Shown here one piece after another: positions 3,890 to 44,634 of a DNA stretch of 64,000 nt; within the stretch, counting starts at the first letter, position 1, and every line of letters begins with the position of its first letter. The notes beneath the pieces are model-generated. The model saw only the letters and a list, made by a program, of their open reading frames with translations, ran no database searches and was not told where the DNA came from. The stretch is from a virus: the IMG/VR virus record IMGVR_UViG_3300028275_000006, positions 148,543 to 212,542 of that record; one strand, written 5' to 3'. The position numbers and the translations under genes were made by a program.

Positions 3890-5941
3890 TTATTTTTCAT
3901 GTGCTATGAATTCACCATTCCAATTATCTGGAAGGTTCTGTTCTTTCATAAACTCGCAACGTTCAATCCAGATTTTGTAGTACTTGTCCATTTGTCCACC
4001 AAAGTTGCCTTTTAGTTTTTTACACATAGCGGCTGCTTCGTCGAACTTCTTTTGTTTATACAAGGCATGCATCAACTCGTGCTGTACTTTATCTTTACTG
4101 TAATCTTCACCTTTGGTTCTTAATGCTGTATAGATTAAGTCTGCTACAGTTTTGCCTTTAGGTTGTAAGTTATCTAGCATTAGATAGAAGAAGTCATCTT
4201 TAGTACGGTTGTAAGTTTCAGCACCGATGATACATAACACGCCATAGGCCTTACAACGTGCTTCTAAACGAGCGGCGGTTGAAACCATGTCACCTAAGAT
4301 GTCGTAACTATGTCTGTCAGTTGATCCCATCTCACCAATAAAGCCAATACCTGAGTTACAACCCCAACCCATTGCGGCTGGTGGTAAGCCTTGTGCTTCC
4401 ATTAGTTTAGTATACTCATCAACAGCATCTAACATCTGTAAACCAACAGCAACAATAGTACGGGCATGATTAGGATCTTCAATCGGAGCACCGTGTATGT
4501 GCATACTTGCGTCACCTACATACTTTATGACCATACCCTTGTTGTCCATGATAGGCTGACTAATAGCATCCATGTAACCGTTCATATACTTGCCTAATCC
4601 AGCAACATCATCACCGTAGTGTTCTCCAATGGGTGTAAAGCCACGCAAGTCACTGAACATAACGGATACGTCTTTACGCACACCACGCTTGATTAGGTCT
4701 GGATCTTTTTGTAGCATTTCTACTACTTCCTTACTACAGTATCCAGCGAACTGTTTCTTAATTGCCTGTTTCTGTAAAAACTCGCTTATAAACTTAACGC
4801 CATAACAATGAAGAGCAACGATAATAAGGCCAAACGCGATCGCAGTCGCGTCTCCCAAGACGAGCCAATTATTGAAAGCGTAGATAGTACCAGGAACGAT
4901 GGCACCAACAATAACCACAGTAGCACCAATGCCAACATAAGTCCACCTCGATAAGAAAATTAATAATATGCCAAGTGATACTAATGCTAAAATTTCAACC
5001 CCGTCGGCATAGTCGGGACGTTGAATAACAATGCCGTTAACCATTGTACCAATTACTGCGGCCTGCACTTCGTGAGGAAATACAGCACCTTTGCTTGTCG
5101 GTAACGGATTACTAATACCAGCGGCAGTAGGACCTACAATAACGACGGCGCCACCTAAATCTTTTGGAAGTTTAACAGCACTAACGCTATGAGCTTCTTG
5201 GCTCCAATCGATCCAAATTCTTCCTAAACTATCTGTAGCAATAGGACCAAACTTTGGAATACGCATTTTCTCAACGCCGCCTTCAAAAAGTTTTACTTGG
5301 AAGGTAGAGTCTCCTGCGGCGACTCTAAGTGTCTCTAAACTCAATGCTGGATATAATTTGCCGTCTACAGTAACAATTAACGGCATGCGGCGATTAACAC
5401 CATCTACTTCTGGAAGTGTTCCTGTAATGCCAACACCTGCGGCATTTTGTTCTAGTTGAGGAACGTTGGCGATTAGTCCCGGGTATTGAATAATTTGATC
5501 TAGATGTTCTGGACCTAGTACAGCCGATCCTGGAACACGTGGTGTATTCTTTGTTTTCTGTGCTGGCGCACTTCCTAGTACTACAGGGAACTCTTTTAGA
5601 GTTTGTCCTAGCGCACCATCTCCACCAGTACGATCTGTCTCTGGCATAAGAACATTAAGTACAACAAGTCCTGCATTTCTTTGGTATAGTTCCTTCACAA
5701 GTTTAGCATATTCTGCTCTTGGTAAGGGCCACTGACCATATTTGTCTAACGTGGCTTCGTCGATATTTACAGTAACTATGTTGTTAACTGTAACTTCTTT
5801 ACTTGTAATTAATGTGTCAAAATAACGTAGTCTTACGCTTTCAACAAATGTAGGATCTGCAACTCTGACACCAACAACTAGTGCTAGAGTTAGTAAAGCA
5901 GTCCATGGACTTACTAGTATTTTTTTGAATTGTATTTTCAT
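3890..5941 (-). CDS. CHASE2-domain class III adenylate/guanylate cyclase
   Basis: A 683-residue membrane receptor cyclase. Residues 1-30 hold one membrane helix; about 35-305 form an extracytoplasmic CHASE2 sensor; about 315-380 contain three membrane helices; about 424-600 form the catalytic domain. Metal-binding Asp431 (MFSDLRGFT) and Asp477 (KYVGDASM) are present, as are Lys473 and Asp547 (YDILG), the pair typical of ATP specificity, and Arg558. The usual Asn of the VNxAAR motif is Ser554 (VSTAAR), which could lower activity. It would make cAMP in response to a periplasmic signal. Its stop is 37 bases upstream of the PBP gene start. Confidence 0.88.
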   Translation of the reverse strand: MKIQFKKILVSPWTALLTLALVVGVRVADPTFVESVRLRYFDTLITSKEVTVNNIVTVNIDEATLDKYGQWPLPRAEYAKLVKELYQRNAGLVVLNVLMPETDRTGGDGALGQTLKEFPVVLGSAPAQKTKNTPRVPGSAVLGPEHLDQIIQYPGLIANVPQLEQNAAGVGITGTLPEVDGVNRRMPLIVTVDGKLYPALSLETLRVAAGDSTFQVKLFEGGVEKMRIPKFGPIATDSLGRIWIDWSQEAHSVSAVKLPKDLGGAVVIVGPTAAGISNPLPTSKGAVFPHEVQAAVIGTMVNGIVIQRPDYADGVEILALVSLGILLIFLSRWTYVGIGATVVIVGAIVPGTIYAFNNWLVLGDATAIAFGLIIVALHCYGVKFISEFLQKQAIKKQFAGYCSKEVVEMLQKDPDLIKRGVRKDVSVMFSDLRGFTPIGEHYGDDVAGLGKYMNGYMDAISQPIMDNKGMVIKYVGDASMHIHGAPIEDPNHARTIVAVGLQMLDAVDEYTKLMEAQGLPPAAMGWGCNSGIGFIGEMGSTDRHSYDILGDMVSTAARLEARCKAYGVLCIIGAETYNRTKDDFFYLMLDNLQPKGKTVADLIYTALRTKGEDYSKDKVQHELMHALYKQKKFDEAAAMCKKLKGNFGGQMDKYYKIWIERCEFMKEQNLPDNWNGEFIAHEK

Positions 5942-6474
5942 TTTTTAAATCCTGGCTTTGGTAAGTGGTTGCGGCCGTAACTAATTCTACTGCCTATAAT
6001 TTGTTCTAATGCTGTATGTAAGGCTTGTCCTGATAAATGTTTACGCAACCATTTTTCTGCTAAGTTGTTAATAATCTTTTCATTAGCGTGTGCAAAGCCG
6101 CCTTTACTTTTAGCGTGTACATAAGCGTGATATGCTTCGTGGGCCGCAACAGCAACGTCTCGTGCCGCGGTGCTGTCTAGATTTGGTAAGTTGATACTGC
6201 CAACGCCGTCGCCTGTATCCCTAAACATTGGATCTCCGCTACTCTGGTAGACATAATACATTCCAGGACCTAATTCGTCATCATCGTCAGTTACTCTATC
6301 TCTACCTAGAATATTTCTAACTACATCATATGCTGTCCAAAGCGTGGCTGCAGGTTCTCTGCTTAATTTTGTAGTTGGAAGCATTATTTTATCTTCAGGA
6401 TCGAAGTCACCATATCTTGCTTTTAAATCGGCGTCACTTGCTTCTGCTTCTTTTATAAATTCTTTTGCTCTCAT
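5938..6474 (-). CDS. Capsid-targeted HExxH metallopeptidase-like protein
   Basis: The start at 6474 is chosen because it yields MRAKEFIKEAEA, the same N-terminus as other genes in this window; longer frames read through the lipoprotein gene. It resembles the T4 capsid-targeting sequence and has an IKE site after which a prohead protease could cut. The mature part (about 170 residues) has AAHEAYHAYVHA, a zinc-type HExxH motif. It probably travels in the head and enters the host with the DNA, where it could cut host proteins; peptidase activity is inferred from the motif only. Its start overlaps the upstream stop (ATGA), and its end overlaps the cyclase start. Confidence 0.75.
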   Translation of the reverse strand: MRAKEFIKEAEASDADLKARYGDFDPEDKIMLPTTKLSREPAATLWTAYDVVRNILGRDRVTDDDDELGPGMYYVYQSSGDPMFRDTGDGVGSINLPNLDSTAARDVAVAAHEAYHAYVHAKSKGGFAHANEKIINNLAEKWLRKHLSGQALHTALEQIIGSRISYGRNHLPKPGFKK

Positions 6475-6614: not shown

Positions 6615-6632
6615 CCAATATTTAGTTAGATT

Positions 6633-10129: not shown

Positions 10130-10138
10130 GGAACCCTC

Positions 10139-11113
10139 TTAGTTTTTCTGTAAAATAGTGTAAGTGTTGCCACTTCCTGATATAGCAAGATTAGTTAGAT
10201 TGCTAACTGATCCTTGTTGTGTAATACCAATAGTATTAGTACTACCTGTTACAGATAACGTTGTGCTGTGTCCAGTAGCAGATCCACCTGTTTGTGCAAG
10301 TGTAATGCCATTGCTACCGCCTGTTACAGTAATACTAGCATAGTGATCGTACGCACCAGTTTGTGTTACGTCTGTAGTATTACCAGAACCTGTGATGTTG
10401 ATAATTGCTTGAGCACCAGTTACACCGTATGCACTCTGTGTTACAGATGTAGTGTTAGTTGCACCAACAGTTGTTAGACTAACTTGACCTTTGTTTCCGG
10501 TCATGTTAAGTGTAGTTGCGTTGCCGCCGCCACCTGTTTGACTAACAGTTGCTACAGTTTCATCAGCGTTGATTGTACCTGTAAATGTGTTGTTAGCACC
10601 ACCACTAGTTCCAACAGTTAATTGGTTACTTGTACCAGTCATGTTAAGTGTTGTAGTTGCACTACCGCCACTTTGAACAAAACTAACAACGTTACCACTG
10701 GCTGTGCCTGTACCATTATTGTTAATATTAATGTAACCTGTGTTTCCACCACCACTTACTTGGTAATTTAAATTCACACCAATATTAGCATAACCTTGTA
10801 CAGTACCACCTTGTGTTGAGTTAACACCTAACGCCAATACGTTAGTTGCTCCTGTTTGCTCAATGTTGATAGTCTGTGCGGCACCAGTTAGTTTAGCAGG
10901 ATCAGTTGTTCCACCTGCTGTGCCATTTAATAATATACCCTTTACTTTGTTTCCTGCTCCGTCTTGAGTCATAGTAATAGTACTATTATCGCCGGACTGA
11001 TCAATGTAAATGCTATTGTCAGCCGCATAACCCAATGTTGTCATTGCAGACAACACCAGAATTGTGAGTAATTTTCTCGACAACCCACCAGCGCCTGTGA
11101 TTCTCTTATGCAT
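10139..11113 (-). CDS. Curlin-repeat protein (CsgA/CsgB-like amyloid subunit)
   Basis: A 324-residue secreted protein. After an N-terminal signal region (residues about 10-30, ending LGYAADN) it is almost entirely Gly/Asn/Thr/Ser/Gln-rich repeats with strands of the type S-x-x-x-I-x-Q-x-G-x-x-N, e.g. YIDQSGDNSTITMTQDG and VTQTGAYDHYASIT. This is the hallmark of curlin subunits, whose repeats form stacked beta-strand/turn units. E. coli CsgA is about 150 residues with five repeats; this is about twice as long. It would be the major fibre subunit exported by the CsgG-like pore. Confidence 0.82.
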   Translation of the reverse strand: MHKRITGAGGLSRKLLTILVLSAMTTLGYAADNSIYIDQSGDNSTITMTQDGAGNKVKGILLNGTAGGTTDPAKLTGAAQTINIEQTGATNVLALGVNSTQGGTVQGYANIGVNLNYQVSGGGNTGYININNNGTGTASGNVVSFVQSGGSATTTLNMTGTSNQLTVGTSGGANNTFTGTINADETVATVSQTGGGGNATTLNMTGNKGQVSLTTVGATNTTSVTQSAYGVTGAQAIINITGSGNTTDVTQTGAYDHYASITVTGGSNGITLAQTGGSATGHSTTLSVTGSTNTIGITQQGSVSNLTNLAISGSGNTYTILQKN

Positions 11114-11196
11114 CGTTTTTACAGAATTAGGTTATCTTCCCTAACTCGCTCCTTGGTCTAAGACCATTAAAAAATTTAAAGTGCTACCTCTCTTTC

Positions 11197-13861: not shown

Positions 13862-15415
13862 TTAACGGATTGCGAAACCCATTTTACCAACTGGTCTTCT
13901 TGTAGCGTAGAAGTTACTGCTGGCATCCAATTTAATTGTGCCCGTGAATACTGGAGGATAGATAACTTCAAAATTGGAGAAGTATGCTCCATTTGATGGT
14001 TTACCTTCAGCGTCCTTAGTAGGCTTCTGTTGTAATGAAGTTTTGACTTGTAACATATTGGAACGTTCCAGAACTGCTTTGAAGAAAGCATCTGTCTTGT
14101 AGTCCTTGTTTACTTTATTTGCTGTGCCAGTTGCTACTGCGGCTAATAAATGCCAACCAATTCTGTAGTCTGGTCTTGTCGAATCGTCTGTGCCTTTATA
14201 AACTAACAATCCTTTTAAGTCGCCTAGTGTTTCGTCATCAACATGCGGCTGATCGCTGTCAATGATTTCCATAATTTTTTCTGCTTGTGTACCATCGATG
14301 ATGCCTACTTTGACACCTAATTCTAATGCACCAGCAATAGAACCATTTCGTTTCCATTGTGCGCTTTTAGCCACATAACTCATGTCAGGGTCTTTAATAA
14401 TGTTTACAATGTCTAGTAGCTCTTGGAAGCCTGGGTTGACTTTAGGATCAAACAATCCTTCATAACGTTGCGGGTATGCCGCTATATCGTCTACCACACC
14501 AGATACAGATGCCTTTGCGCCGCCTTGCTTGTCTTTGGAACTTACACGAATCTTCACATCACCTGAAAACTTCAAATAACTATCGTATAGTTTTTCAGCA
14601 GGATCGTTTGGAAATTCTACACCAACGGCTTCTTCAAACTTCAAACCCATTCCGGCTTCGGCCTGTTGCCATGCACCACTTAAGAACTTTTTCTTAATTA
14701 ATGAAATTGGTGCGGCTGTTTCACCTAAATCAATTTCGTAACTCTTAGCATAGTCGCCGGCGCCGGGGACAGGATTACTGCTACCAGAAGCAACAGCCTG
14801 CAATAGTTGTACTACCTGTTGTTTAATAGCATCTGCTAGATCATCACGCTCTTGAATAGAACCTTGCACTTGTGTAGGAATATCATCTACAGCAATGGTT
14901 GTATTAGTAGGAATAATTCCAACAGGTTTTAAATTAGTTAGAGCACGTTGTTGTACTCCAGAAATTTTATCTTCCTCTCCTGCTTTGCCGCTTAGTTGTA
15001 CATAACCAGTTAGGTCTGAAAACTGTTTAGTCTGTAAGAAGATTGGATAAGCACCTGGCTTCTTAGCAGGCTTAAGAGCGATCCATGCTATGTTCTTTTT
15101 AGATTTTTCATCTTTAAAAATCATTACTAATGCGGCACCTGCTTTTTCAGGTATGCTTAGTCCGCCCACTGGCGGAAGTGTTAGTGCGTTAGATACTGCT
15201 ACATTGTTAGCCTTCACATAGTCCATAATCTCTGGAACTAGTTCTTGATAATTGTCTCGCTTGTCTACGTCTTGTGGAAACACTTGAGATGCAATCATAT
15301 GAATAACATTTCCATCTGCATTTTTAAATGCTACACGTTTGCCACGGCCGGCTTCTTCTGCACGGCGGGCCATGCCGCCTTCAGATTCAAATAAAATAAA
15401 TTCTTTTGCTCTCAT
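13862..15415 (-). CDS. Capsid-targeted internal protein (517 aa), function unknown
   Basis: It starts MRAKEFILFESEGG: the shared N-terminal peptide followed by LFE, a possible prohead-protease site. The rest is a soluble, mixed alpha/beta protein with no family I can name. A segment GDVKIRVSSKDKQGG has the look of a PD-(D/E)xK-type nuclease strand (D...S/E-x-K), but this is weak. A protein of this size delivered with the DNA would be a candidate host-takeover factor. Its start overlaps the stop of the next upstream MRAKEF gene by four bases, so the two are co-translated. Confidence 0.75.
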   Translation of the reverse strand: MRAKEFILFESEGGMARRAEEAGRGKRVAFKNADGNVIHMIASQVFPQDVDKRDNYQELVPEIMDYVKANNVAVSNALTLPPVGGLSIPEKAGAALVMIFKDEKSKKNIAWIALKPAKKPGAYPIFLQTKQFSDLTGYVQLSGKAGEEDKISGVQQRALTNLKPVGIIPTNTTIAVDDIPTQVQGSIQERDDLADAIKQQVVQLLQAVASGSSNPVPGAGDYAKSYEIDLGETAAPISLIKKKFLSGAWQQAEAGMGLKFEEAVGVEFPNDPAEKLYDSYLKFSGDVKIRVSSKDKQGGAKASVSGVVDDIAAYPQRYEGLFDPKVNPGFQELLDIVNIIKDPDMSYVAKSAQWKRNGSIAGALELGVKVGIIDGTQAEKIMEIIDSDQPHVDDETLGDLKGLLVYKGTDDSTRPDYRIGWHLLAAVATGTANKVNKDYKTDAFFKAVLERSNMLQVKTSLQQKPTKDAEGKPSNGAYFSNFEVIYPPVFTGTIKLDASSNFYATRRPVGKMGFAIR

Positions 15416-16320
15416 TCACAGTTCCAACGTTTACGTGCTTTGCAGATTGCCTTGTCTGGTGTCTTAGTGCAATCAATATTGTGCATTTTCTTTTGGCCAT
15501 CACTTCTAGCACAAAAACTTGATCTACGCTTACTTGCCTTAGATCCTTTCTTTAATTTGCTAGGAGGTGTAGTGACTGCTGTTTTTAATTTACTACCAGG
15601 ATGTTCTCTACGATATGCTTTAACGGCTTTACTGCTCATGCCATCGGTTTTGTCTTTCTTATTAACCTTCTGCCAATCTTCTGACATACCTTCTGGGCCA
15701 ATTTGAACTAACCATTCTAATTCATCGTCTGCATCTCTAACACTGAAGAATTTAACATTAGGAATCTTCTTAGCCGCAAACCATTTGTTAGCCACTTTAA
15801 CCATTAGGGCACGATGTTGACGATCATTAACATCCGGTTCATATCCGCCTGTTAAGTTTGCCCACAATGCACTTGGATTGCCATGGCGATCGTAACCCAA
15901 CAATTCACGCCATTGTTGTTGTAAGCGATCTGGCACATACTGATCCAATTCAGTGTCGCTCATCCACTCTCGGCCAATATCGACACCTTCCGCCATGGCG
16001 GCTTCAGTTAAGTCTTCTGGGGCAAAACCAATATAACTCTTACCATGCTCATCGCCAGACTGCACAACAAATGCGCCGCCTTCTTCTGATTCGATTTCGC
16101 CAATTTCCCAACCCATACGATTTAATAGTTTTTCAACTTTTTGTTGTATGTCGTCATCGCCATTGTACCAAATACGAGCGTACTTGAGTAATGTTTCTTC
16201 TTCGTCGCCACTATTATCCGGCGCAAATTCTTTTACATTTTGCTTTTTCTTTTTAGCAATAGCGATAGCGGCTTGTTGTGCGGCATTGGTTGCTTCTGTG
16301 ATGAATTCTTTTGCTCTCAT
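15412..16320 (-). CDS. Capsid-targeted internal protein with basic Cys-containing tail
   Basis: The 302-residue product starts MRAKEFITEATN with a clear ITE site after residue 9. Residues about 10-225 are acidic. The tail (about 230-302) is Lys/Arg-rich with the pattern MSSKAVKAYRREHPGSKL, then KRRSSFCARSDGQ and CKARKRWNCE. I know this basic Cys-containing tail from uncharacterised proteins of large DNA viruses and phages, where DNA binding is suspected. It may be packaged bound to phage DNA. It heads the transcript that also carries the 13862 gene. Confidence 0.72.
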   Translation of the reverse strand: MRAKEFITEATNAAQQAAIAIAKKKKQNVKEFAPDNSGDEEETLLKYARIWYNGDDDIQQKVEKLLNRMGWEIGEIESEEGGAFVVQSGDEHGKSYIGFAPEDLTEAAMAEGVDIGREWMSDTELDQYVPDRLQQQWRELLGYDRHGNPSALWANLTGGYEPDVNDRQHRALMVKVANKWFAAKKIPNVKFFSVRDADDELEWLVQIGPEGMSEDWQKVNKKDKTDGMSSKAVKAYRREHPGSKLKTAVTTPPSKLKKGSKASKRRSSFCARSDGQKKMHNIDCTKTPDKAICKARKRWNCE

Positions 16321-16343: not shown

Positions 16344-17024
16344 TTAGCGAATTTCTGGGAACAAACATTCCTGTATGAATACCCTAACATCCTCTTCATC
16401 TAAGCCTAAACTAGCCATTACACGTGGAGTATGTGGGTTACATTTTTGATTGATTGCGTAGTAGTTCTGCGCTTCTGTGGTATTTTCAGTAGTATTATTA
16501 GTTTCTGCTACAGTTTCTAAGTAATGTGCCAGTGTATCTTTAGCCATTTCTATAATCTGCGCTAGTTCTTCTTCGCTCTGCACATTACCTGCGGCTACCA
16601 TGCTAGGGCTGAATATGTTGGTAGCCCATTCTGGTAGTTGGCGTTCTCTGCGCCATTCGAGTCGTTTAACATAATCAGCAAACCATTCCATCATAGGATG
16701 ATTAGAATCTCCTGCTTTGCTGTAATCATGAAAACAGCCAGTAATCTTATTCTTGCCTGCTACAACGTCAAAGCCGTAAATTGGTGCTGGATTGTGTAAG
16801 TGTGGGAAGATGCAACAATGCATCATCCAGAGTCCTTTGGTTTCTCTAGCATCCACAACATCAACGTGAGCACGGCGATAAGACCCACTGGTCCAAACAC
16901 GATTAACCCAACCAGGCTGATTAAAGCGATCCATGCCCGGTTCAAAGATTTCTGTTCCTGTTTCATTAAAACTGCTTTCTAAAAGATGCTGAACTTCAAT
17001 CAGCGTGTCCCATACTTTACTCAT
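16344..17024 (-). CDS. Ferredoxin-dependent bilin reductase (PcyX/PebS-like)
   Basis: The 226-residue product fits the bilin reductase family, which reduces biliverdin IXalpha using ferredoxin. Visible landmarks are the core FPHLHNPAPIYGFDVVAG (residues 73-90), KNKITGCFHDYS just after it, and the C-terminal YYAINQKCNPHTPRVM then LFPEI. Asp86 in the GFD strand is a candidate proton donor. Which bilin is made cannot be read from sequence alone. Its start overlaps the heme oxygenase stop by eight bases, so the two enzymes form a heme-to-bilin pathway. Phage versions (PebS, PcyX) are known. Confidence 0.85.
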   Translation of the reverse strand: MSKVWDTLIEVQHLLESSFNETGTEIFEPGMDRFNQPGWVNRVWTSGSYRRAHVDVVDARETKGLWMMHCCIFPHLHNPAPIYGFDVVAGKNKITGCFHDYSKAGDSNHPMMEWFADYVKRLEWRRERQLPEWATNIFSPSMVAAGNVQSEEELAQIIEMAKDTLAHYLETVAETNNTTENTTEAQNYYAINQKCNPHTPRVMASLGLDEEDVRVFIQECLFPEIR

Positions 17025-17571
17025 AGTGTGGAACTATATCCATCATTTGATCAAAGAATTTTGCCGCAAAATCAAAACATACTCTTGCTTCATCTGCTAG
17101 ACTATCATCTAGTTTTGCACGAATTGCTTCTTTGATCTTTTCAGGTTCGTCTCCAAACTGATAGTATTTGCCACTGCCTGGAACTCTTTTAGCAATCATT
17201 TGACCGCCTGATAAATCTCCCATGTGACGTACATAAATGTGTGCCATCAACTTTTTAGGATCATCTTTGATGCTGAGAATATATTTGATATATTCATCCA
17301 CTACCGGACACATTTTTGGTTCTTCAGGATTGTCTGAGCCCCATAGTTCTATGAAGTCAGATAAAATTGCAGGTGCTCTGCGTATCTCTGGTAGACCGGA
17401 AAGTAATCCATGTGGCATAGCACAGACTTCTAAAATCTCATACATTGGATGTTGATTTTTTAGATATGTTGCGTATAGTTTAGGATTTACATTTCCTGAA
17501 AATAAGACTTTAACAAAAGGCCTTGTTTCTGCTCTGCGATGTTGCTCGTGTGTAAGTTCTTTTAGACTCAT
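17017..17571 (-). CDS. ho1: Heme oxygenase
   Basis: A 184-residue heme oxygenase, which opens heme to biliverdin, CO and iron. The proximal heme ligand is His11 (THEQHRRAE), and the distal-helix signature GDLSGGQ is at 118-124, with the usual YVRHMG before it. Length is slightly shorter than bacterial HO (about 210-240). It overlaps ClpS upstream by four bases and the bilin reductase downstream by eight. It could feed bilin synthesis, release iron (see the Fe-S genes at 25.6-26.6 kb), or both. Confidence 0.92.
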   Translation of the reverse strand: MSLKELTHEQHRRAETRPFVKVLFSGNVNPKLYATYLKNQHPMYEILEVCAMPHGLLSGLPEIRRAPAILSDFIELWGSDNPEEPKMCPVVDEYIKYILSIKDDPKKLMAHIYVRHMGDLSGGQMIAKRVPGSGKYYQFGDEPEKIKEAIRAKLDDSLADEARVCFDFAAKFFDQMMDIVPHYE

Positions 17572-17876
17572 TCGGAATCCACTTTAATTTGTAATGGGAA
17601 GCCTGCTTGACGTGCAAGGTGTGTTGCCTCAACACCTTTCTGCTCGGCGATCTCGTAGGTATAAACACCTACTACTGCTGAACCTTCATTGTGTACAGTT
17701 AATGTAATCTGTTCAGCATTTTCTCTGGAGTGCTTAAACACAGTCATTAGTAATTCAATAACAAAGTCGATTGGAGTTTTGTTATCATTTAAAAACAATA
17801 CCTTGTAACGCTTAGGTTCAGTGATATCGATTTTAATCTTTTCGTCAATTTTAATTTCGGTGTCTACAGTTGGCAT
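17568..17876 (-). CDS. clpS: ClpS-like N-degron adaptor
   Basis: A 102-residue protein with the ClpS fold signature: LFLNDNKTPIDFVIELL, VFKHSRENAEQITLTVHNEG and VVGVYTYEIAEQK. The Asn/Asp pair (NDN) and the His of LTVHNEG correspond to residues that hold destabilising N-terminal residues. ClpS delivers such substrates to ClpAP. An AATAAATA late box (17899-17906) lies upstream. It heads an operon with heme oxygenase and the bilin reductase, and could work with phage ClpP to redirect host ClpA. Confidence 0.9.
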   Translation of the reverse strand: MPTVDTEIKIDEKIKIDITEPKRYKVLFLNDNKTPIDFVIELLMTVFKHSRENAEQITLTVHNEGSAVVGVYTYEIAEQKGVEATHLARQAGFPLQIKVDSE

Positions 17877-17898
17877 ATTGGCCCTCCATTCTTAATGG

Positions 17899-17906
17899 TA
17901 TTTATT
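17899..17906 (-). promoter_or_regulatory. T4-like late promoter box (AATAAATA)
   Basis: AATAAATA on the minus strand lies 22 bases before the ClpS start, with a GGAGG ribosome site between. It would drive clpS, heme oxygenase and bilin reductase late in infection. Confidence 0.5.
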
Positions 17907-17907
17907 A

Positions 17908-17927
17908 GTGGGGGCCGGAGCCCCCGA
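17908..17927. terminator. GC-rich hairpin between hsp20 and clpS
   Basis: GGGGGC-CGGA-GCCCCC (17910-17925) is followed by GATTTTTT on the plus strand and by CACTAATAAAT on the minus strand. It lies just after the hsp20 stop, so it probably ends or stabilises the hsp20 transcript, although the U-tract is stronger in the other direction. Confidence 0.5.
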
Positions 17928-17931
17928 TTTT

Positions 17932-18378
17932 TTACTTAACTTCTTTCACTTCAATCTTACGTGGCAGAAGTGCTTCAGGAACAATGCGCTCGATTTGAAT
18001 TGTAAGCACACCATCCTTAATTTCTGCTGACTTGATTTCCATGTGTTCTGCTAGAGTAAATCTACGTTCGAAATCACGGAAAGCAAGACCTCTGTGTAAG
18101 TACTCAACTTGGTATTCGCCTTCGTTAGCATTGATTGCCTTCTCGCCGCGAATAGTTAATTGATCACCTTCCACTTCTACTGCAACTTCATCTTTACCGA
18201 ATCCTGCTACAGCAACAACTATATTATACTGGTTTTCTCCAGACTTTTCAATATTATATGGAGGATAGTTGTTCGAAATCTGATGTGCAAAGCGTGTTTC
18301 GAAAGTATCGAATAGATTGTCGAAACCGATTAATGCTCTGTTTAGAGCGGCTGTGTCAAAACGTGTTAATTGTGTCAT
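17932..18378 (-). CDS. Small heat-shock protein, Hsp20/IbpA-like
   Basis: A 148-residue alpha-crystallin-domain chaperone. The N-terminus (LNRALIGFDNLFDTFE) resembles IbpA. The domain runs from about residue 35 (YNIEKSGENQYNIVVAVAGF) to about 135, with DQLTIRGEK and GLAFRDFERRFTLAEHME. It holds unfolding proteins for DnaK. Hsp20 is a recurring gene in T4-like phages of aquatic bacteria. Its leader is nearly the same as that of dnaK, suggesting joint control. Confidence 0.93.
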   Translation of the reverse strand: MTQLTRFDTAALNRALIGFDNLFDTFETRFAHQISNNYPPYNIEKSGENQYNIVVAVAGFGKDEVAVEVEGDQLTIRGEKAINANEGEYQVEYLHRGLAFRDFERRFTLAEHMEIKSAEIKDGVLTIQIERIVPEALLPRKIEVKEVK

Positions 18379-18435
18379 TTTATATCTCCTTTAATTAAGC
18401 AAGAATTTTAGTAGGGCCCCACCCGGGCACCCTAC
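18379..18435 (-). promoter_or_regulatory. hsp20 leader with hairpin and motif shared with dnaK
   Basis: The minus strand holds a GTAGGG...CCCTAC hairpin (18411-18435) followed by AAAATTCTTGCTTAATTA and AAGGAGA before the ATG. The same order of elements precedes dnaK. The CTT...AAG complement could cover the ribosome site. Confidence 0.5.
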
Positions 18436-18444
18436 ATAACGAGT

Positions 18445-20310
18445 TTAGTTTGTTTCCTTAAACTCGGCATTGATTGCATCTTCCTGAACAGGTTCAAATG
18501 GCTTGTCCTGTTTGGCCTGTGCAATCGCTTGACTGGCCACTGCTAGTTCGCTAGTCTTTTGTACGATAGCGTCTTTGTCAGAACCTGTCAATTCTGTTTG
18601 AAGTGCTTTAACAGCATCTTCGATCTTTGTTTTATCTGTGTCTGAAAGTGTTGTTTCTTTCATGTCGTTTTCAACATTGTTGATCAACGCCTCGGCTGTG
18701 TTCCTAGCATCGATAAGTTCACGTGCCTTCTTATCTGATTCGGCATTAACTTCTGCATCACGAACCATTTGTTCGATCTGCTCTTTGCTTAGACCACTGT
18801 CACTCTTAATTGTGATTTGATTTTCTTTGCCGGTGTTTTTATCTTTAGCACTAATTTTCATAATGCCGTTAGCATCGATGTCAAATGTAACTTCAATCTG
18901 TGGAGTGCCACGACGTGCTGGAGCAATACCGTCTAACTTAAACTCACCCAGGAGTTTGTTGTATTGGAATAGTTCACGCTCGCCTTGTGCTACTTTGATA
19001 TCAACTGCTGGTTGATTATCTTCTGCTGTGCTAAACACTTGGCTAGCCTTAGTAGGTATAGTTGTGTTCTTTTGTACAAGTTTAGTAAACACACCTCCCA
19101 TAGTTTCAATGCCTAGTGACAATGGTGTTACGTCTAACAATAGAACGTCTGTACGATCACCTGCTAGTACTGAACCTTGAATAGCCGCACCAACTGCTAC
19201 TGCTTCGTCTGGGTTAACGTCTTTGCGTGGAGCCTTACCGAATAGTTTTTCAACTGCTTCTTGTACCTTGGGCATACGTGTTTGCCCACCAACAAGAATA
19301 ACTTCGTCAATTTCTGATGGAGTAACACCTGCATCCTTCATAGCAACCTTACATGGTTCGATACTACGTTGGATTAGTTCTTCTACCAATGCTTCTAACT
19401 TAGCACGAGTAATCTTAACATTCATGTGCTTAGGACCACTTGCGTCTGCTGTGATGTAAGGTAAGTTAACATCAGTGCTGGCACTGCTAGATAACTCAAT
19501 CTTGGCTTTTTCAGCGGCTTCTTTTAGACGTTGTAAGGCCAACATGTCTTTCTTAAGGTTCATGCCTGACTCTTTCTTAAACTCGTCGACCAAGTAGTCC
19601 ATAATACGTTGGTCAAAGTCTTCACCACCTAAGAATGTGTCGCCGTTAGTGCTTAGTACTTCGATTTGTTTTTCGCCATCCACGTTGGCAATTTCAATGA
19701 TCGATACATCGAAAGTACCACCACCAAGGTCATAAACAGCAACTTTGCGATCTGCTTTGTCGTTTTTATCAACACCATAAGCAAGAGCTGCCGCAGTAGG
19801 CTCGTTAATAATACGCAATACTTCCAAGCCTGCGATTTTTCCAGCATCCTTAGTTGCCTGTCTTTGGCTGTCATTAAAGTATGCGGGAACTGTGATAACT
19901 GCTTGAGTAACTTTTTCACCTAAATAATCCTCTGCTGTCTTTTTCATCTTACGCAGAACTTCAGCACTAATCTGCGGAGGTGCTAATTCTTTACCCTGTG
20001 CGCGAACCCATGCATCTCCATTCTTGGATTCCATGATTTCGTAAGGCATTAGGTCAATATCTTTTTGTACAGCCTGTTCTTTGAACTTACGTCCAATAAG
20101 ACGCTTGGCCGCATAGATTGTGTTTTTGGGATTTGTTACTGCTTGACGTTTAGCACTAGCACCTACAAGTACTTCGTCTGTAGAATAGGCAACAATACTA
20201 GGTGTAGTTCTTGCACCTTCGCTGTTTTCAATAACTTTGGAATTTCCTGACTCGATGACTGCTACGCATGAATTGGTAGTACCCAAGTCGATACCGATGA
20301 CTTTGCTCAT
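18445..20310 (-). CDS. dnaK: DnaK (Hsp70) chaperone, near full length
   Basis: The 621-residue product is a clear bacterial-type Hsp70. The ATPase domain carries [13 protein letters not shown] (4-16), [12 protein letters not shown]-type phosphate loop ([12 protein letters not shown]) and VGGQTRMP; the substrate domain follows the linker [13 protein letters not shown]. The C-terminus ends [10 protein letters not shown], so the usual Gly/Ala-rich linker and EEV-type tail are shortened. It is closer to proteobacterial DnaK than to divergent viral Hsp70s, suggesting fairly recent capture from a host. No DnaJ or GrpE is in the window. It may assist capsid folding and also act on IscU (25.9 kb), which keeps its chaperone site. 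Confidence 0.97.
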
Positions 20311-23987: not shown

Positions 23988-24290
23988 TTACTTAAAGAAT
24001 ATCAATGCCATTAAAACGGCTTGAACAATAAAACCAAAGCCAATTGTAACTACATTTAGCATATCCTTTTGGACAGCGGCTTTGACAAACAACAGCGCAA
24101 GTCCGGACCAAACTAACAGTACCAAATCAACTGCTGGTAGTCTATCTGTAAGTCCACTCATTACTGCTAACAAACTTGGAATGGTACTAGCGTGTAATAC
24201 AATGACTGCTAACCAACCAAATGTTTCTGCGGAAATTTGAGATACTTTGGTAGTAACAAACTCTTTGAGTTGATCAATATTATTAATCAT
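23988..24290 (-). CDS. Small membrane protein with three hydrophobic helices
   Basis: The 100-residue protein has a polar N-terminus (MINNIDQLKEFVTTKVSQ) and three hydrophobic stretches (about 22-43, 50-70 and 78-98). Size and topology are compatible with a class I holin, and it overlaps the upstream SleB-type wall hydrolase by four bases, which is a classic holin/endolysin pairing. No sequence family is recognised, so the holin call rests on position and topology. Confidence 0.7.
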   Translation of the reverse strand: MINNIDQLKEFVTTKVSQISAETFGWLAVIVLHASTIPSLLAVMSGLTDRLPAVDLVLLVWSGLALLFVKAAVQKDMLNVVTIGFGFIVQAVLMALIFFK

Positions 24291-24841
24291 ATTTTGGTTT
24301 CCTTGCCTTTATAAAAAATGTGTTGTCCAATTTTGCCTATTTTTTCCAAATTCCATCTTGGGTTGACGTAGGAGGCATGATAGTATAAAGCATCTTTGAG
24401 AACGTCCAATCTGAAATTCTCAAGTAAAACCTTCTTAGCAACTTCGTAACTTTCATTATAAGCCTCCTTGTTTACAGGTTTAGTTTTTGCCGCAGAGTCA
24501 CATGCCCATGAAAATTGGCACACAACTTTTTCCATAATTACGTTCTTTTGGTAAACGACACCGCAGACATCTTGTCCAAATTTGCCTGATGCAACACGGT
24601 TCATTGTTACTTGGGCAACAGCAACCTTACCTTCGAATGGCTCATAACCTGCTTCGCGATAAATGTTGATTGCCAAACAATCTAATTGACGCTCTCGTGT
24701 CTTGATAGACACTACGTCCTGTGAGTATAGCCCGCCTCGTTCACGCAATGACTGAAACTTTGTAGTCGTTACAGTTTGAACCAAAACGGCAACCATAACT
24801 AATCCTAAAAAATAGGATACTAATCTAAATGACTTTTCCAT
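24287..24841 (-). CDS. SleB-family cell-wall hydrolase (signal-anchored)
   Basis: The start at 24841 has AAGGAGG five bases upstream; a GTG at 24856 would include the ribosome site itself. The N-terminus is a membrane anchor (MEKSFRLVSYFLGLVMVAVLV). Residues about 50-180 match the SleB/Hydrolase_2 domain: LAINIYREAGYEPFEGK, AVAQVTMNRV, VCQFSWACD and ALYYHASYVNPRW. It cuts peptidoglycan glycan strands. The signal anchor suggests a SAR-type endolysin, and the next gene looks like a holin. 184 residues. A second SleB domain is in the capsid-targeted protein at 41959. Confidence 0.88.
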   Translation of the reverse strand: MEKSFRLVSYFLGLVMVAVLVQTVTTTKFQSLRERGGLYSQDVVSIKTRERQLDCLAINIYREAGYEPFEGKVAVAQVTMNRVASGKFGQDVCGVVYQKNVIMEKVVCQFSWACDSAAKTKPVNKEAYNESYEVAKKVLLENFRLDVLKDALYYHASYVNPRWNLEKIGKIGQHIFYKGKETKI

Positions 24842-24928
24842 AAGTCCTCCTTTCACTTAGTGTTATTTTGGGCATAATATTGCACCGCAACAACATTACA
24901 TTAAGGGAGTTAACTTCACGAGGCTCAA

Positions 24929-25610: not shown

Positions 25611-25931
25611 TTATACTCGAAATGACTCGCCACAGCCACAACGGTCACGTTCATTTGGATTGGTAAAGTCAAATCCTTCGTTAAGACCTTTCTTTACCCA
25701 TTCAACTTGTACACCGTCCAGGTATGCTAGACTTTTTGGATCAACAAATACGTGTACACCGTGACTAACAAAACTCATATCTTCTTTTGTGGGCTCGTCA
25801 ACAAATTCAATCATATAAGCCATTCCACTACAGCCTGTAGTTTTAACACCTAATCGAATGCCTAGCCCTTTGCCCCTACGGTCTAGTGTAATCTTTACTC
25901 GCTCTGCGGCTTTCTCAGACAGTGATATCAT
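25611..25931 (-). CDS. iscA: A-type Fe-S carrier, IscA-like
   Basis: A 106-residue A-type carrier with all three cluster-binding Cys: Cys34 (TTGCSG), Cys98 and Cys100 (CGCGESF). The fold signature [16 protein letters not shown] and [15 protein letters not shown] is intact. Such proteins carry Fe-S clusters from the scaffold to apo-enzymes. It overlaps the IscU start region by 17 bases at the IscU stop and follows it in the operon. It lies closer to IscA than the 26314 protein does. Confidence 0.92.
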
Positions 25932-26304
25932 TTTTTGCCTTGTAGTCTGCTACTGCGGCTTTGATAGCATCTTCCGCAAGAATTGAACAATGGATTTTAA
26001 CGGGTGGAAGTGCAAGTTCTTCGGCAATCGCGCTGTTCTTAATCTCTCCCGCTTGATCCAACGTTTTTCCTTTGAGCCACTCGGTGACCAACGATGAACT
26101 AGCAATAGCACTTCCGCATCCGTATGTCTTGAATTTCGCATCCTCAATAATGCCCTCGTTATTAACTTTAATTTGTAACTTCATCACGTCGCCGCAAGCA
26201 GGTGCTCCCACCATGCCTGTGCCAACGCCTTCCTCGTCTTTAGGGAAACTACCTACGTTGCGAGGATTTTCGTAGTGATCTATAACTCTATCGGAATAAG
26301 CCAT
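25915..26304 (-). CDS. iscU: IscU Fe-S cluster scaffold
   Basis: A 129-residue IscU, complete and with catalytic residues at the same numbers as E. coli IscU: Cys37 (PACGDV), Asp39, Cys63 (YGCGSA), His105 and Cys106 (KIHCS). The LPPVK motif (99-103) that Hsp70 chaperones recognise for cluster release is intact. The start at 26304 has AAGGAG upstream. It is flanked by two A-type carriers; no cysteine desulfurase (IscS), HscB or ferredoxin is in the window, so sulfur would come from the host. It would serve phage or host Fe-S enzymes, such as the three radical SAM proteins at 61-64 kb. Confidence 0.95.
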
Positions 26305-26313
26305 TTAATCTCC

Positions 26314-26619
26314 TTAAACTGAAAACGAACTTCCACATCCACAAGTTGTTTGTGCATTTGGATTTTCAATATTAAAACTAGAGCCCATTAAGTCATCGAT
26401 AAAGTCGACTTTGGCTCCTTGCAAATAGTTCATGCTCATTGAATCTATTAATATTCTACCAAATTCAAAGTCGTCTTCTTCTTTGTTTTTTGCAAAATCG
26501 AACACGTAATTAAATCCCGAACATCCTCCACCTTCTATTGCAATTCTAAGGTATTTTTCTTTGCTTTCATCCAGCACCATTTGAATTTCTTTTTCAGCGG
26601 TTTCTGTTATTGTAATCAT
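26314..26619 (-). CDS. A-type Fe-S carrier, ErpA-like
   Basis: A 101-residue second A-type carrier with Cys33 (GGCSGFNY), Cys93 and Cys95 (CGCGSSF). EGGGCSGFNYVF and FNIENPNAQTTCGCG are typical of ErpA and HesB-type proteins. It is the first gene of the three-gene Fe-S operon and lies nine bases before IscU. Early (26662-26690) and late (26641-26648) promoter boxes both precede it, suggesting expression throughout infection. Confidence 0.9.
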   Translation of the reverse strand: MITITETAEKEIQMVLDESKEKYLRIAIEGGGCSGFNYVFDFAKNKEEDDFEFGRILIDSMSMNYLQGAKVDFIDDLMGSSFNIENPNAQTTCGCGSSFSV

Positions 26620-35688: not shown

Positions 35689-36017
35689 GAGGCCATTGCT
35701 GTATTTGTTGCGTGTTTTGCCATTTGTGCAACAGCGTCACTGCCTGTGTCGCCGTCTACTGGACCTTGTGGTGGTGTTTGATTTTTAGTCTTTAGTTCAA
35801 TGCCGTTTTGATCAAATCGTGCTACTAATTTTTGTAGATTAGGATCTGCATCGAAGGTTAATTTAAATGTGTCGTAGTCGAATTCTTCTTGGCCAATGTT
35901 TGTCATGAAACGATTAATTTCGTCCCATCTAAAATTGCCTGGAATGTTTTTGCTATCGGCTTTACCGATCAAACTCCTAAGAATTAGGATTAGGTTTGGA
36001 TCGGTTGCCTCAATTAC
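35685..36017 (-). CDS. Frame -1 extension of the 36014 gene (candidate programmed frameshift product)
   Basis: The frame is open from the A-run at 36018-36026 to the stop at 35685, adding 110 residues (VIEATDPNLILILRS...). Inside it a TTG at 35972 could start a 95-residue protein, but its ribosome site is too close (AGGAG one base away). The text reads as one protein through the junction and continues with KADSKNIPGNFRWDEINRFM. A slippery A-AAA-AAG is followed 11 bases later by a long hairpin (35964-36005). Most likely it is made as a C-terminal extension of the 295-residue protein. Confidence 0.6.
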   Translation of the reverse strand, partial: VIEATDPNLILILRSLIGKADSKNIPGNFRWDEINRFMTNIGQEEFDYDTFKLTFDADPNLQKLVARFDQNGIELKTKNQTPPQGPVDGDTGSDAVAQMAKHATNTAMAS

Positions 36018-36901
36018 TTTTTTTTTGGTGCTAGTAAACTTGCTAGTTTACGGCTAAACTCGATTGATTCACGAGTAGCACGACCTGCGGGCTCTTCGCC
36101 ACCTGCCGCTGGAGCAGCCGCTCCTGCTTCTTCTTCACCGCCAACTACTGTGCCTGATTCAGCACCTGCTTCTGGTTCTTCTGCGCCTGCTTCTGGTGCT
36201 GGCTCTGCGCCCATTGTTGGAGCGGCTCCTTCACCTTCGCCTGTTAAGATAGCAACTGCTTGTGTTAGTTGCTGACGTGAACTTTCTAATGCTGTGTAGA
36301 TAGTTGCAAGGGCTGGTTTAACAACTCCCTCGAACTCCATTGATGTATCACTGCCCATTTCGTCTCTTATAGAGTCAATTAATTCTAACATTGATTCGGC
36401 CTGCATATTTGCTGTGTCTTCCATCCAGCCTGTAACGCGGTCAACCATGTCACGAGCGGCCATGATTAACTCGGCCTTTTCTTCTTCGCCTTCACGTAGT
36501 ACAGATTCTACTTGTACTACGGCTTTGTTCTTATTAACTTTATTCTGTAATTCTTCTGGAAGATCTTCAAATGCGATAACACCTTGCTCTACTTTTTCTA
36601 ATACCATGCTTTCCATTTCAGTATAGCCGCTGTCAGTAGTCATTTCGTTGCTACGCTCTTCGATAGCACGATTTAACACATCTAGGAACAGTTTGTTCTT
36701 AGAATATGTTTCGTCTTCGTAGACAGCATTGTAGCTCTCGCTGGCTTCAAACTGACTAATCTTTGTACGTAACTTGTTACGTGCATCTTCTAACTGTTCA
36801 AGAGTGAAACTCTCTAAATCAATTTTCTGTCCAAATTGCTGGGCTACGCTTTCGTTTAACGCCTTGGCAGTTAATGGTTTGTTAAGTTCTGTAATACGCA
36901 T
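36014..36901 (-). CDS. Core/scaffold-like head protein (zero frame, 295 aa)
   Basis: The protein starts MRITELNKPLTAKALNESV; LNE is a possible prohead-protease site. It is acidic and mostly helical (ESFTLEQLEDARNKLRTKIS), with a low-complexity Ala/Glu/Gly/Pro segment (about 225-275), as in scaffold or core proteins that are digested during head maturation. I recall related MRINEL-type proteins of marine T4-like phages. It ends in APKKK at a run of nine A on the coding strand. An exact TATAAATA late box and AGGAAG site precede it. Probable -1 frameshift into the next frame. Confidence 0.75.
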   Translation of the reverse strand: MRITELNKPLTAKALNESVAQQFGQKIDLESFTLEQLEDARNKLRTKISQFEASESYNAVYEDETYSKNKLFLDVLNRAIEERSNEMTTDSGYTEMESMVLEKVEQGVIAFEDLPEELQNKVNKNKAVVQVESVLREGEEEKAELIMAARDMVDRVTGWMEDTANMQAESMLELIDSIRDEMGSDTSMEFEGVVKPALATIYTALESSRQQLTQAVAILTGEGEGAAPTMGAEPAPEAGAEEPEAGAESGTVVGGEEEAGAAAPAAGGEEPAGRATRESIEFSRKLASLLAPKKK

Positions 36902-41932: not shown

Positions 41933-41960
41933 AAAAAAGGACTCTTCGGAGTCCTTTTTT
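41933..41960. terminator. Bidirectional intrinsic terminator between convergent genes
   Basis: AAAAAAGGACTC-TTCG-GAGTCCTTTTTT is a near-perfect palindrome with T-runs on both strands, ending both the 41627 gene (+) and the 41959 gene (-). Confidence 0.95.
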
Positions 41961-43371
41961 ATACTTGAGCGGCAAATATTGTGCCGCCTATCTTTTCGCC
42001 GCCAGCGGCTATCATCTTATCTCTAAATCCAATGTTAGTGCCTGCACCGTAGGCCGCACTAGAAGCCGCTGTAAAGTATTTGAGATTTGTTGGAACTTGC
42101 GGAAGAATATTAATTGCGCCATCTACAATGTTAGCCAATTGTCTATCAGTTGGGCCACGTGTAAAGTTAGCACTTGGGCCCGGATCAAATCTTGTACCAG
42201 TAACTGCTTGGAACTGATTTGGAGCTCTTAACACACTGATAACATTGTCGCCCCAATTACCTGTGCGTGTTCTGTTTAGGATAACGCCCATAACATAGGC
42301 TTGTTCTTTACTGTTATTGCTTGCTTCAGCAGTTGTAGCACGTAACAAGTAATTCCATTCTTTGTCGTCCATTGGACGTCCTAGATACTTTTCTGCTGTT
42401 GCTCTTGCCTTTTGCGTACTCTCGGTGCTAGTTAAGGCTGCAACTTCTTCAGCACCTCTGCTATAGTCTAATGACTTAACATCCTTGTTAGTACTCTTTG
42501 TTAAAGTAGCCAATACTTCAGGCTTGGCTTTGAGCATGGCGTTCATTTTATCCGCAGTTTGCTGATTAACAATTCCTGTTGCTTCTAAGCCATTCTTCTC
42601 TTGGAAGGTTTTGATAGCACCTGTTGTTTCTTTACCTTGAATCCCATCAACACCATATTTAGGTAAAGGTACGCCCAATGCTTCTAATGCCTTTTGTGCA
42701 TCTGCAATTAATGGGCCACGTTTGCCGTCTGGAACTTCTACACTAAATGGAACTGCCGTAGCATCTTTTTCTTTATTGTCTGCTGTATCTTTACTAGCAG
42801 GTGCGGCAATAGAAGAACCTGCTTGAAATAGTTTACTGTATCCGTTAAACGGGTGTATGCCATCGCCCTTGGCTATGTTTGGATCAAAGGTGTTTAGTGA
42901 ACCTAAAAACTTTGCTCCTGCGCCTGCGGCAATGCCGGATAGTTTTTGATTTGCGCCTGTGTAATCTACAGTCCATTGTTTACCATTAGTAAACTTTGTA
43001 GGCTTTTGCAAAGGTGTTTTGCCATCAGCAACACCAACTAGTGCTACCGATGCTCCTGCATCTTTTAACGCTTTAATCTGTTGACTAATTGGACCAAAGT
43101 TTTCCGATTGAATCTGTGTTCCGTCTTCTGTTTCTACTTTACCACTGTTAGCGGCTCCACTACTTAAAATAACAATAGCACCTTTTGCTTTGCCACTTTT
43201 AACAAAGGGCGTTACAAGATTTTGTAGAACAAATGTAGTGTTTTTTCCAGGATTAGTGTATTCTTTGCTAACGCCACCGGCGCCAGCAATGCCATTGGCA
43301 ATACTGTCTCCAATTACGTAAACGTTGGATTTTGATTCAAAAAGTTTGGATAAGAATTCTTTGGCTCTCAT
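41959..43371 (-). CDS. Capsid-targeted SGNH hydrolase + peptidoglycan-binding + SleB hydrolase
   Basis: A 470-residue protein beginning MRAKEFLSKLFESKS (shared capsid-targeting peptide; LFE cleavage site). Then: an SGNH-type hydrolase domain (about 16-190) with YVIGDSIANG (GDS) and GDGIHPFNGYSK (D-x-x-H); a peptidoglycan-binding domain (about 215-275, YGVDGIQGKETTGAIKTFQ); and a C-terminal SleB-type wall-hydrolase domain (about 325-470, TAEASNNSKEQAYVMGVILNRT). The order suggests a protein that binds the cell wall, removes acyl groups and cuts glycan during DNA entry. A CATAAATA box ends six bases before the ATG. Confidence 0.82.
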   Translation of the reverse strand: MRAKEFLSKLFESKSNVYVIGDSIANGIAGAGGVSKEYTNPGKNTTFVLQNLVTPFVKSGKAKGAIVILSSGAANSGKVETEDGTQIQSENFGPISQQIKALKDAGASVALVGVADGKTPLQKPTKFTNGKQWTVDYTGANQKLSGIAAGAGAKFLGSLNTFDPNIAKGDGIHPFNGYSKLFQAGSSIAAPASKDTADNKEKDATAVPFSVEVPDGKRGPLIADAQKALEALGVPLPKYGVDGIQGKETTGAIKTFQEKNGLEATGIVNQQTADKMNAMLKAKPEVLATLTKSTNKDVKSLDYSRGAEEVAALTSTESTQKARATAEKYLGRPMDDKEWNYLLRATTAEASNNSKEQAYVMGVILNRTRTGNWGDNVISVLRAPNQFQAVTGTRFDPGPSANFTRGPTDRQLANIVDGAINILPQVPTNLKYFTAASSAAYGAGTNIGFRDKMIAAGGEKIGGTIFAAQV

Positions 43372-43462: not shown

Positions 43463-43828
43463 ATGAAACGCTTAGTAGTATTCATTGCGTTGACAACAAG
43501 TTTGACATTAAGCCTGGCAAATACGAGCTTGAAAAACCCGACCCATTCAGTCTCCGTTGCCCAACACCCGACTGTGATACGAAGCGCACAGGTCCGTGTA
43601 AATCTACCGAAAATCCAAAAACCTAAGATATTTGTTGGACATCCACATAAAATCTTTGTCTCTGATTGGGACGGAGATTTCCTAGAAATTGATGATGTTA
43701 TCACCAGTTATCGTCGTAGGGATTTAAACAAGATTGAACACGAAGACGGTATCAGTGATAATGTTCGTTGGCGATTGTTTTTAGCTCGCCAACTAGCATT
43801 ACTCAAATATAGACAAATTTACAGTTAA
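43463..43828 (+). CDS. Secreted hypothetical protein (121 aa)
   Basis: The N-terminus MKRLVVFIALTTSLTLSLA is a Sec signal peptide. The mature part is basic, with IFVSDWDGDFLEIDDV and a C-terminal RRDLNKIEHEDG. The start at 43463 has GAGGACC eight bases upstream; the frame at 43444 is only a shadow. Its end overlaps the convergent secreted-nuclease gene by four bases. Function unknown; it may be an envelope factor. Confidence 0.7.
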   Translation: MKRLVVFIALTTSLTLSLANTSLKNPTHSVSVAQHPTVIRSAQVRVNLPKIQKPKIFVGHPHKIFVSDWDGDFLEIDDVITSYRRRDLNKIEHEDGISDNVRWRLFLARQLALLKYRQIYS

Positions 43829-44634
43829 TCTGCTTTGCCGCACTTAGCACGTTTAGCATTAGTTAACGCACCGTAGTCCACAGGCCATTCTTGTCCAGGT
43901 TGTAGTTCTTTTGCGTTAGCAGGATACTTGAATGTAACGCCTGCTTGTTGTTGTATTTGTGCTACTGGTACACGGAACTTGGTCAAGTCGTTGCCAAGAT
44001 TAACATATGGTTTAGTGTGTGGGAAAGCCCAACCAGCAATAGCACCTGTTTGTTGATCAATAACAATCTTGTAGTAGCCATGTGGAACAATAACGCCATT
44101 GCCAATTACACCGTCACCAGCGCCATAAAATGCTCCAACGTATATTGTAAACGGACGATTCTGCTGTACCGCCCACCCACGTACTGAAGTTTCCAGTAGT
44201 TTCCAAATTCCACGATTTAAACTGCCGTGTTGTGGATACATATTGGTCATTAGGAAACTCTCATACTCCACGATCTGTGACCAACTTAGGTCACCATCGG
44301 GAGCGGCATGTCCTTTGTCGTAGCCTGTGCCTGCGTAGTCATTAGGAGTAGCACCCCCAGGAACTGACTGATCCGCAACGAATGCGTTCGTACGTGGAAA
44401 GCATCCTAAAGCATTTTGTGGAAGTAATGTGTATGCTACATAAGCAGGAATCTTAACAGGAGCATCGTATGCTACTAGATATGCTTCGCGGCAAATTGGA
44501 GCAACTTGTCGTTGTGTTTGAGCAAAGCCGTAAGGACTGTGTACTTGACAGGCTTGTACTGGTAGTGGAGCACGTTGTTCCCAGGCAAACACTTGGGTTG
44601 AAACAAACGCTAACAATAATAATAACTTCTTCAT
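43825..44634 (-). CDS. Secreted DNA/RNA non-specific endonuclease (NucA-like)
   Basis: A 269-residue beta-beta-alpha metal nuclease with a signal peptide (MKKLLLLLAFVSTQVFA). The DRGH motif appears as DKGH (106-109), and the metal-binding Asn helix is NMYPQHGSLNRGIW (131-144). The Arg-to-Lys change in DKGH is unusual. It degrades nucleic acid in the periplasm or outside the cell. It could destroy competing phage DNA entering the cell, scavenge nucleotides or thin extracellular DNA. An AAGGAT ribosome site precedes it. Confidence 0.87.
   Translation of the reverse strand: MKKLLLLLAFVSTQVFAWEQRAPLPVQACQVHSPYGFAQTQRQVAPICREAYLVAYDAPVKIPAYVAYTLLPQNALGCFPRTNAFVADQSVPGGATPNDYAGTGYDKGHAAPDGDLSWSQIVEYESFLMTNMYPQHGSLNRGIWKLLETSVRGWAVQQNRPFTIYVGAFYGAGDGVIGNGVIVPHGYYKIVIDQQTGAIAGWAFPHTKPYVNLGNDLTKFRVPVAQIQQQAGVTFKYPANAKELQPGQEWPVDYGALTNAKRAKCGKAD

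Follow-up and report, generated by a model that had tools for sequence, protein, structure and literature searches.

A tagged three-domain wall enzyme of a giant T4-like phage and its predicted packaging into the phage head

Introduction

Does the wall enzyme encoded at one locus of a giant, T4-like phage serve lysis at the end of infection, or does it travel in the phage head and open the wall at entry? In the textbook account, phages with contractile tails open the cell wall by means of a baseplate lysozyme; wall enzymes carried in the head are a podovirus theme. The locus belongs to a phage represented by metagenomic sequence only, in a T4-like virus record of 212.5 kb (G000), of which positions 148543-212542 form the window, i.e. 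the whole stretch of 64,000 nucleotides that was analysed. The original prediction, made from the letters of the window, proposed a packaged enzyme in which a capsid-targeting start is joined to SGNH hydrolase, peptidoglycan-binding and SleB domains.

Results

Gene and domains of the enzyme

The ORF was found exactly where it had been predicted (Table 1), on the minus strand with an ATG start and encoding 470 amino acids, and identical copies of the enzyme are present in five further viral contigs (L001-L003 and L005, and a partial copy in L004). The three-domain make-up was upheld, the PG_binding_1 and SleB domains by Pfam and the SGNH domain by aligned motifs together with AlphaFold2 and Foldseek. 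The Hydrolase_2/SleB match of Pfam covers residues 354-437 (E 1.7e-6, above cut-off), and in the alignment a candidate catalytic glutamate, Glu349 in the motif AEAS, is kept in 7/7 SleB-type family members. Pfam did not call the SGNH domain in the window enzyme and called Lipase_GDSL in most relatives. Alignment with these relatives places GDS at residues 21-23 (Ser23) and a DxxH motif, DGIH, at residues 170-173 (Asp170/His173), while block III reads GAANS versus the canonical GxND. The AlphaFold2 model has a mean pLDDT of 78.5, with low values at residues 7-13 (the end of the tag) and 190-206 (linker), and Foldseek matched it, among PDB structures, to TesA, PatB and the GDSL esterase Cj0610c with probability 1.00 and moderate TM-scores; the E-values of these structure matches are modest, the best SGNH match having 3e-3. 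The model of the relative L020 is poor except in its SGNH and PG-binding parts, and is stronger in its structure matches, with 29 below 1e-3, nearly all of them SGNH/GDSL proteins.

Table 1. Features of the tagged enzyme and of other proteins of the window (arrow, proposed cleavage position)
Feature	Position in window	Strand	Basis or remark
Tagged wall enzyme, 470 aa	41959..43371	-	ORF, Pfam domains, AlphaFold2 model, identical copies
N-terminal tag MRAKEFLSKLFE, residues 1-12, proposed cut after LFE-12	43336..43371	-	Recurrence, cleavage-motif coupling, T4 IPII/IPIII comparison
SGNH-type esterase domain, about residues 14-190	42802..43332	-	Alignments, Foldseek, Lipase_GDSL in relatives
PG_binding_1, residues 218-276	42544..42720	-	Pfam E 9.7e-14
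SleB-type (Hydrolase_2) catalytic domain, about residues 322-470	41962..42408	-	Pfam, L071 identity, alignment
Unrelated tagged protein MRAKEFITE↓A, DUF6321 at C-terminus	15412..16320	-	
Unrelated tagged protein MRAKEFILFE↓S, no family match	13862..15415	-	
Unrelated tagged protein MRAKEFIKE↓A	5938..6474	-	Internal ATG of ORF 5938-6618
Tag-like start MRITEL...LNE↓S	36014..36901	-	phrog_14154 (virion structural proteins), E 1.3e-10
Contrast, non-member: untagged membrane-anchored SleB-domain protein	24287..24856	-	Hydrolase_2 E 1.5e-26, hydrophobic N-terminus

The N-terminus of the enzyme reads MRAKEFLSKLFE↓SKS. No hydrophobic core of the signal-peptide type was found in it, and secretion, which the original prediction had set against packaging, was therefore rejected. 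The enzyme gene neighbours a tail-fibre-like gene of 2131 aa. Between the two lies a gene for a DNA/RNA non-specific endonuclease (43825-44634, minus strand; E 8e-38) with a signal-peptide-like start, and a similar-looking gene follows a tagged gene in L038.

The N-terminal tag and its protease-like site

The proposed capsid-targeting start proved to be a shared feature, since MRAKEF[IL] opens three other, unrelated proteins of the window (Table 1). The full pattern, M[RK]xx[EDQ][FLI]...(I/L/V/F)xE, occurs at 7 gene starts of G000 against 1/805 internal methionines, and at 7 gene starts against 1/1055 internal methionines in one relative. The coupling of the two halves was assessed by asking how often M[RK]xx[ED][FLI] at residues 1-6 is followed within the next ~10 residues by (I/L/V/F)xE and a small residue. 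Such a cleavage motif lies downstream of 12/20 tagged starts and of 44/579 others (G000 and G001 pooled; Fisher p ~1e-8, relatedness uncorrected), the true significance being lower than this because the pattern was set after the tag had been seen and because the two genomes share orthologous genes. The strict DNA pattern of the tag matched few loci, and sites of the T4 late-promoter type (TATAAATA) were too few for a comparison.

The window tag closely resembles the propeptide of the T4 internal proteins IPII and IPIII, both of which begin MKTYQEFIAE↓A (10-aa propeptide, annotated in X04567). The likeness extends to an N-terminal tag of about 10 aa, the EFIxE↓A site, a cut by the prohead protease and diverse cargo behind one tag. 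The window enzyme differs in its cargo, a three-domain wall enzyme, in a tag of the form M-R-x-x-E-F versus M-K-T-Y-Q-E-F that ends LFE↓S versus IAE↓A, and in that its packaging is predicted. The capsid targeting sequence of T4 is enough to package foreign proteins and is removed by gp21 (PMC3012670, PMC9958956, PMC5694885). Sites of this kind lie near the starts of the putative gp21, gp22 and gp23 of G001 (VVE↓S, LFE↓N and LSE↓S, respectively), and a Peptidase_S77, the T4-type prohead protease, is encoded in 3/3 of the largest relatives. Neither gp21 nor gp23 was found in the G000 record, so that the prohead protease is known from the relatives only; the simplest explanation, and a probable one, is that the record is incomplete.

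Tag-like starts are also found on NT5C-like and DUF6267 proteins of the locus L014 (G000:57001-77000), and these apparently nucleotide-type proteins are either packaged too or indicate that the tag is not head-specific. T4 Alt is an example of a packaged enzyme. The tag-like starts of L014 are clustered at G000:60776-65586 on the minus strand (MRLIDIINE, MRLRNLFE, MRLRELFVE and MRASDL), and further packaged enzymes are possible there. Other tagged proteins were seen in related contigs (L038:444-2122, L039:5189-6348 and L037:12506-12997), among them GNAT-like ones and others of no assigned function, showing diverse cargo behind the tag. The tag pattern showed no excess in CBB, an isolate jumbo phage with the gp23 capsid family and virion MS data; CBB does not use the pattern and is uninformative for its validation in isolates.

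Lysis genes of the same phage

The domains of the enzyme are typical of endolysins, the best PHROG matches carry that name, and a signal peptide is absent, as in holin-dependent endolysins. The enzyme might thus be the phage endolysin or a second one, its N-terminus being an ordinary leader with no targeting role. G000, however, already has an untagged GH19 endolysin (phrog_181, E 2e-77) that adjoins Rz- and Rz1-like genes in a lysis cluster at 71307-73782, which also has a holin-like gene and lies about 117 kb from the gene of the tagged enzyme. With lysis provided for by these other genes, the tagged enzyme is probably not the lysis enzyme. G008, a relative of 259 kb, holds two untagged endolysin candidates beside two tagged SGNH enzymes, and throughout the family the tag is constant while the cutter varies. 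We regard an endolysin role as unlikely, and it was rejected as the main reading once the separate lysis cassette had been found. Searches of G000 for GH24, M15_4, M23 and Amidase_2 domains found none. The untagged endolysin of G000 and the untagged candidates of G008, together with the untagged membrane-anchored SleB protein (Table 1), indicate that wall enzymes in these phages are not generally tagged. The membrane-anchored protein is also conserved in G001.

A family with a constant tag and exchanged cutters

Relatives of the enzyme were gathered by scans of viral contigs, counting distinct proteins with a complete N-terminus, by which a sixteenth member, L082, was left out because it is cut by a contig end. 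There are 15 distinct proteins with tag and SGNH domain, usually joined to a PG-binding domain, and the tag pattern opens 15/15. Their C-terminal parts are diverse, namely SleB (7), lambda-R-like (2), SLT (2), Phage_lysozyme2 or tail lysozyme (2), VanY (1) and none (1). The lambda-R-like ends match phrog_90 ("endolysin"), a type which we take to be akin to lambda R.

The case for swapping is made by pairwise identities, since trees leave most of the family unresolved. The SGNH domains of L074 and L069 are 84% identical, and their ends differ (tail lysozyme versus SleB). The SleB domain of the window enzyme is 64% identical to the C-terminus of L071, its SGNH domain groups with L006 in another clade than L071, and in its PG-binding domain it shares 66-70% identity with L007, whose cutter is of another kind. 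In L020 and L077 a tagged protein with PG-binding and M23 peptidase domains is encoded directly upstream of the SGNH gene.

A second recurrent neighbour is a small tagged basic protein (pI ~10, 80-113 aa, core KASRKLC..SELGASNLASCKSQGLR), whose gene is found just upstream of the SGNH gene at most loci. It adjoins the SGNH gene, or lies one gene off, in L006, L020, L067, L071, L074 and L077, is somewhat farther upstream in L063, and is found elsewhere in G001 (94317-94562). The small protein had zero matches among isolate phages and is a candidate DNA-binding internal head protein. Neighbours of this kind are what one would expect beside the gene of an internal head protein.

The SGNH part was not found in isolates when three family members were compared by tblastn with 50,697 phage records, in which PG-binding or SLT parts were the only ones matched. 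In bacterial genomes, patterns drawn from the lambda-R-like domain alone found one Rhodobacteraceae bin, which has that part only. Small untagged SGNH proteins (GDSLAVGVG...GSNDTAK) also stand alone, at G000:136162-136599 and G001:15529-15951, both on the minus strand.

Discussion

The one argument for the enzyme being part of the virion is its tag, which makes packaging into the head likely. Head targeting, as originally predicted, is still the best reading in view of the presence of the tag on unrelated proteins, its likeness to T4 IPII/IPIII and the coupled cleavage motif, and is further backed by the prohead protease of the largest relatives and the untagged lysis genes of G000. We consider it probable that the enzyme is a virion lysin which a jumbo phage of the T4 superfamily packages into its head, and which would be ejected with the DNA and cut the wall.

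The course of events from packaging and cleavage to ejection, the place where the enzyme acts and the substrate of its esterase are inferred as follows. The first 12 residues would dock the enzyme into the prohead core, and a T4-type prohead protease would cut after LFE-12. The basic mature enzyme of 48 kDa, from Ser13 onward, would stay among the DNA and leave with it through the tail. At the wall, the PG-binding domain would hold the enzyme in place, the SGNH domain would strip ester groups that block cutting, most simply the O-acetyl of MurNAc, and the SleB-type domain would cut the glycan strand by lytic transglycosylase chemistry. Entry with local cutting of the wall appears the best reading of the enzyme. 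T4-type tails are thought to deliver their contents to the cytoplasm, and an extra assumption is therefore needed for the enzyme to reach peptidoglycan; release into the periplasm during ejection is the one that we would prefer.

The arrival of T4-type internal proteins in the cytoplasm, and the presence of tagged non-wall enzymes in the same genome, would also suit an enzyme that is packaged and injected but acts inside the cell, for example on wall precursors, on rival phages or against superinfection. For PG-binding and polymer-cutting domains, however, the assembled wall is the only sensible target, and an export signal for the return trip is absent, which makes an intracellular role unlikely. 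The neighbouring tail-fibre-like gene, and the fact that the known lysins of contractile phages are mostly located in the tail (PMC5380687), are in line with a virion lysin of tail or baseplate, like T4 gp5, for which the tag would be a general assembly or chaperone signal. We find a tail location rather improbable, since the enzyme has no baseplate domain, the tag resembles propeptides of the T4 head core down to its terminal protease site, and in relatives the genes nearby encode small basic tagged proteins similar to internal head proteins.

SleB is a lytic transglycosylase (PMC12331253), and an O-acetyl group at C-6 precludes the lytic transglycosylase reaction, because this reaction uses the C-6 hydroxyl; bacteria clear the group with the SGNH esterase Ape (PMC6174289). 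The rationale of the original prediction, that de-acetylation permits cleavage, agrees with this biochemistry. An SGNH domain is paired with cutters of the glycan strand in 13/15 members, and the tagged M23 peptidases are without SGNH, a pairing that fits, as circumstantial evidence, de-O-acetylation clearing the way for cutting. Removal of acetyl groups by the window enzyme itself is plausible, although esterase activity of this copy is uncertain because its block III is GAANS and not GxND. The fold also matches acetylesterases other than Ape.

A catalytically dead SGNH domain, serving as a carbohydrate-binding or spacer module, would be compatible with packaging. Such a loss would be in line with the altered block III of the window enzyme and of L006 (GAGNS), the failure of Pfam to recognise the window copy, and the state of the L063 copies, where DxxH is lost in the SGNH domain fused to VanY and in one SleB-linked copy of the same phage. 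The window enzyme nevertheless keeps GDS, the glycine and DxxH, and most relatives carry the complete GDSH/GAND/DGxH set, so that we hold an inactive domain to be somewhat unlikely while giving it real weight. The two tagged SGNH proteins of L063, with SleB and VanY ends, stand in tandem (L063:5440-7453), and the SGNH domains of both, lacking DxxH, are apparently inactive.

Several known systems share traits with the enzyme. T7 gp16 and phi29 gp3 are wall-cutting virion lysins that are kept inside the head and leave it ahead of or together with the DNA (PMC5380687), but they are podovirus core or DNA-linked proteins, have other domains and carry no removable tag. In phage phi11, gp44 (Tal) joins an endopeptidase and an SGNH/esterase domain on one virion lysin (PMC5380687); it resembles the window enzyme in this joining of SGNH hydrolase to a wall-cutting domain and differs from it in its baseplate site, Gram-positive host, endopeptidase cutter and absence of a head tag. 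The endolysins phiKZ gp144 and EL gp188 show the combination of PG-binding domain and transglycosylase in jumbo phages, with a role in lysis and with neither SGNH domain nor tag. The same two proposed activities are found in bacterial Ape (Ape1) and SleB, which are normally separate, exported and unfused proteins. In phage P1, N-terminal residues of DarB suffice for capsid targeting (PMC9024508), but these are 30 residues that lack the shared consensus, and the cargo is anti-restriction. Among these systems the enzyme is best described as a putative virion-associated lysin with T4-style head targeting, and what would be new is a modular, swappable family of SGNH domain plus wall cutter. No earlier report of tag, SGNH domain and wall cutter in combination was found in the open literature, a scope that excludes most subscription journals.

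The conserved tag and the swapped cutter suggest a toolkit of wall-opening enzymes injected with the DNA. As a tentative generalisation, jumbo phages of the T4 superfamily may have made capsid-targeted internal proteins into a wall-opening kit with exchangeable parts. In this kit a tagged esterase-transglycosylase fusion, sometimes with a separate tagged endopeptidase, would be packed and injected, the cutter matched to the wall of the host and the O-acetyl cleared by the esterase. If true, a modular wall enzyme delivered by a tag in these phages joins the baseplate-lysozyme and podovirus themes, and T4-style internal proteins do more than their known defence roles. The family gives a testable tag and cut site, its natural esterase-transglycosylase fusions are a means to ask whether de-O-acetylation limits entry, and the tag is a sequence handle for predicting what uncultivated jumbo phages inject as cargo.

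The window holds further genes of note. A curli-type cluster on the minus strand (3890-12366) encodes CsgG (E 1e-46) with SH3 domains, two proteins with curlin repeats and a FecR-domain protein, and adjoins a gene for a protein with CHASE2 and adenylate/guanylate cyclase domains, with the tagged protein of 5938-6474 in between; curli genes are known from aquatic phages (PMC7029224). By eye, DnaK, Hsp20, ClpS, heme-oxygenase-like and IscU/IscA-like genes were seen at 17017-20310 and 25611-26619 (minus strand).
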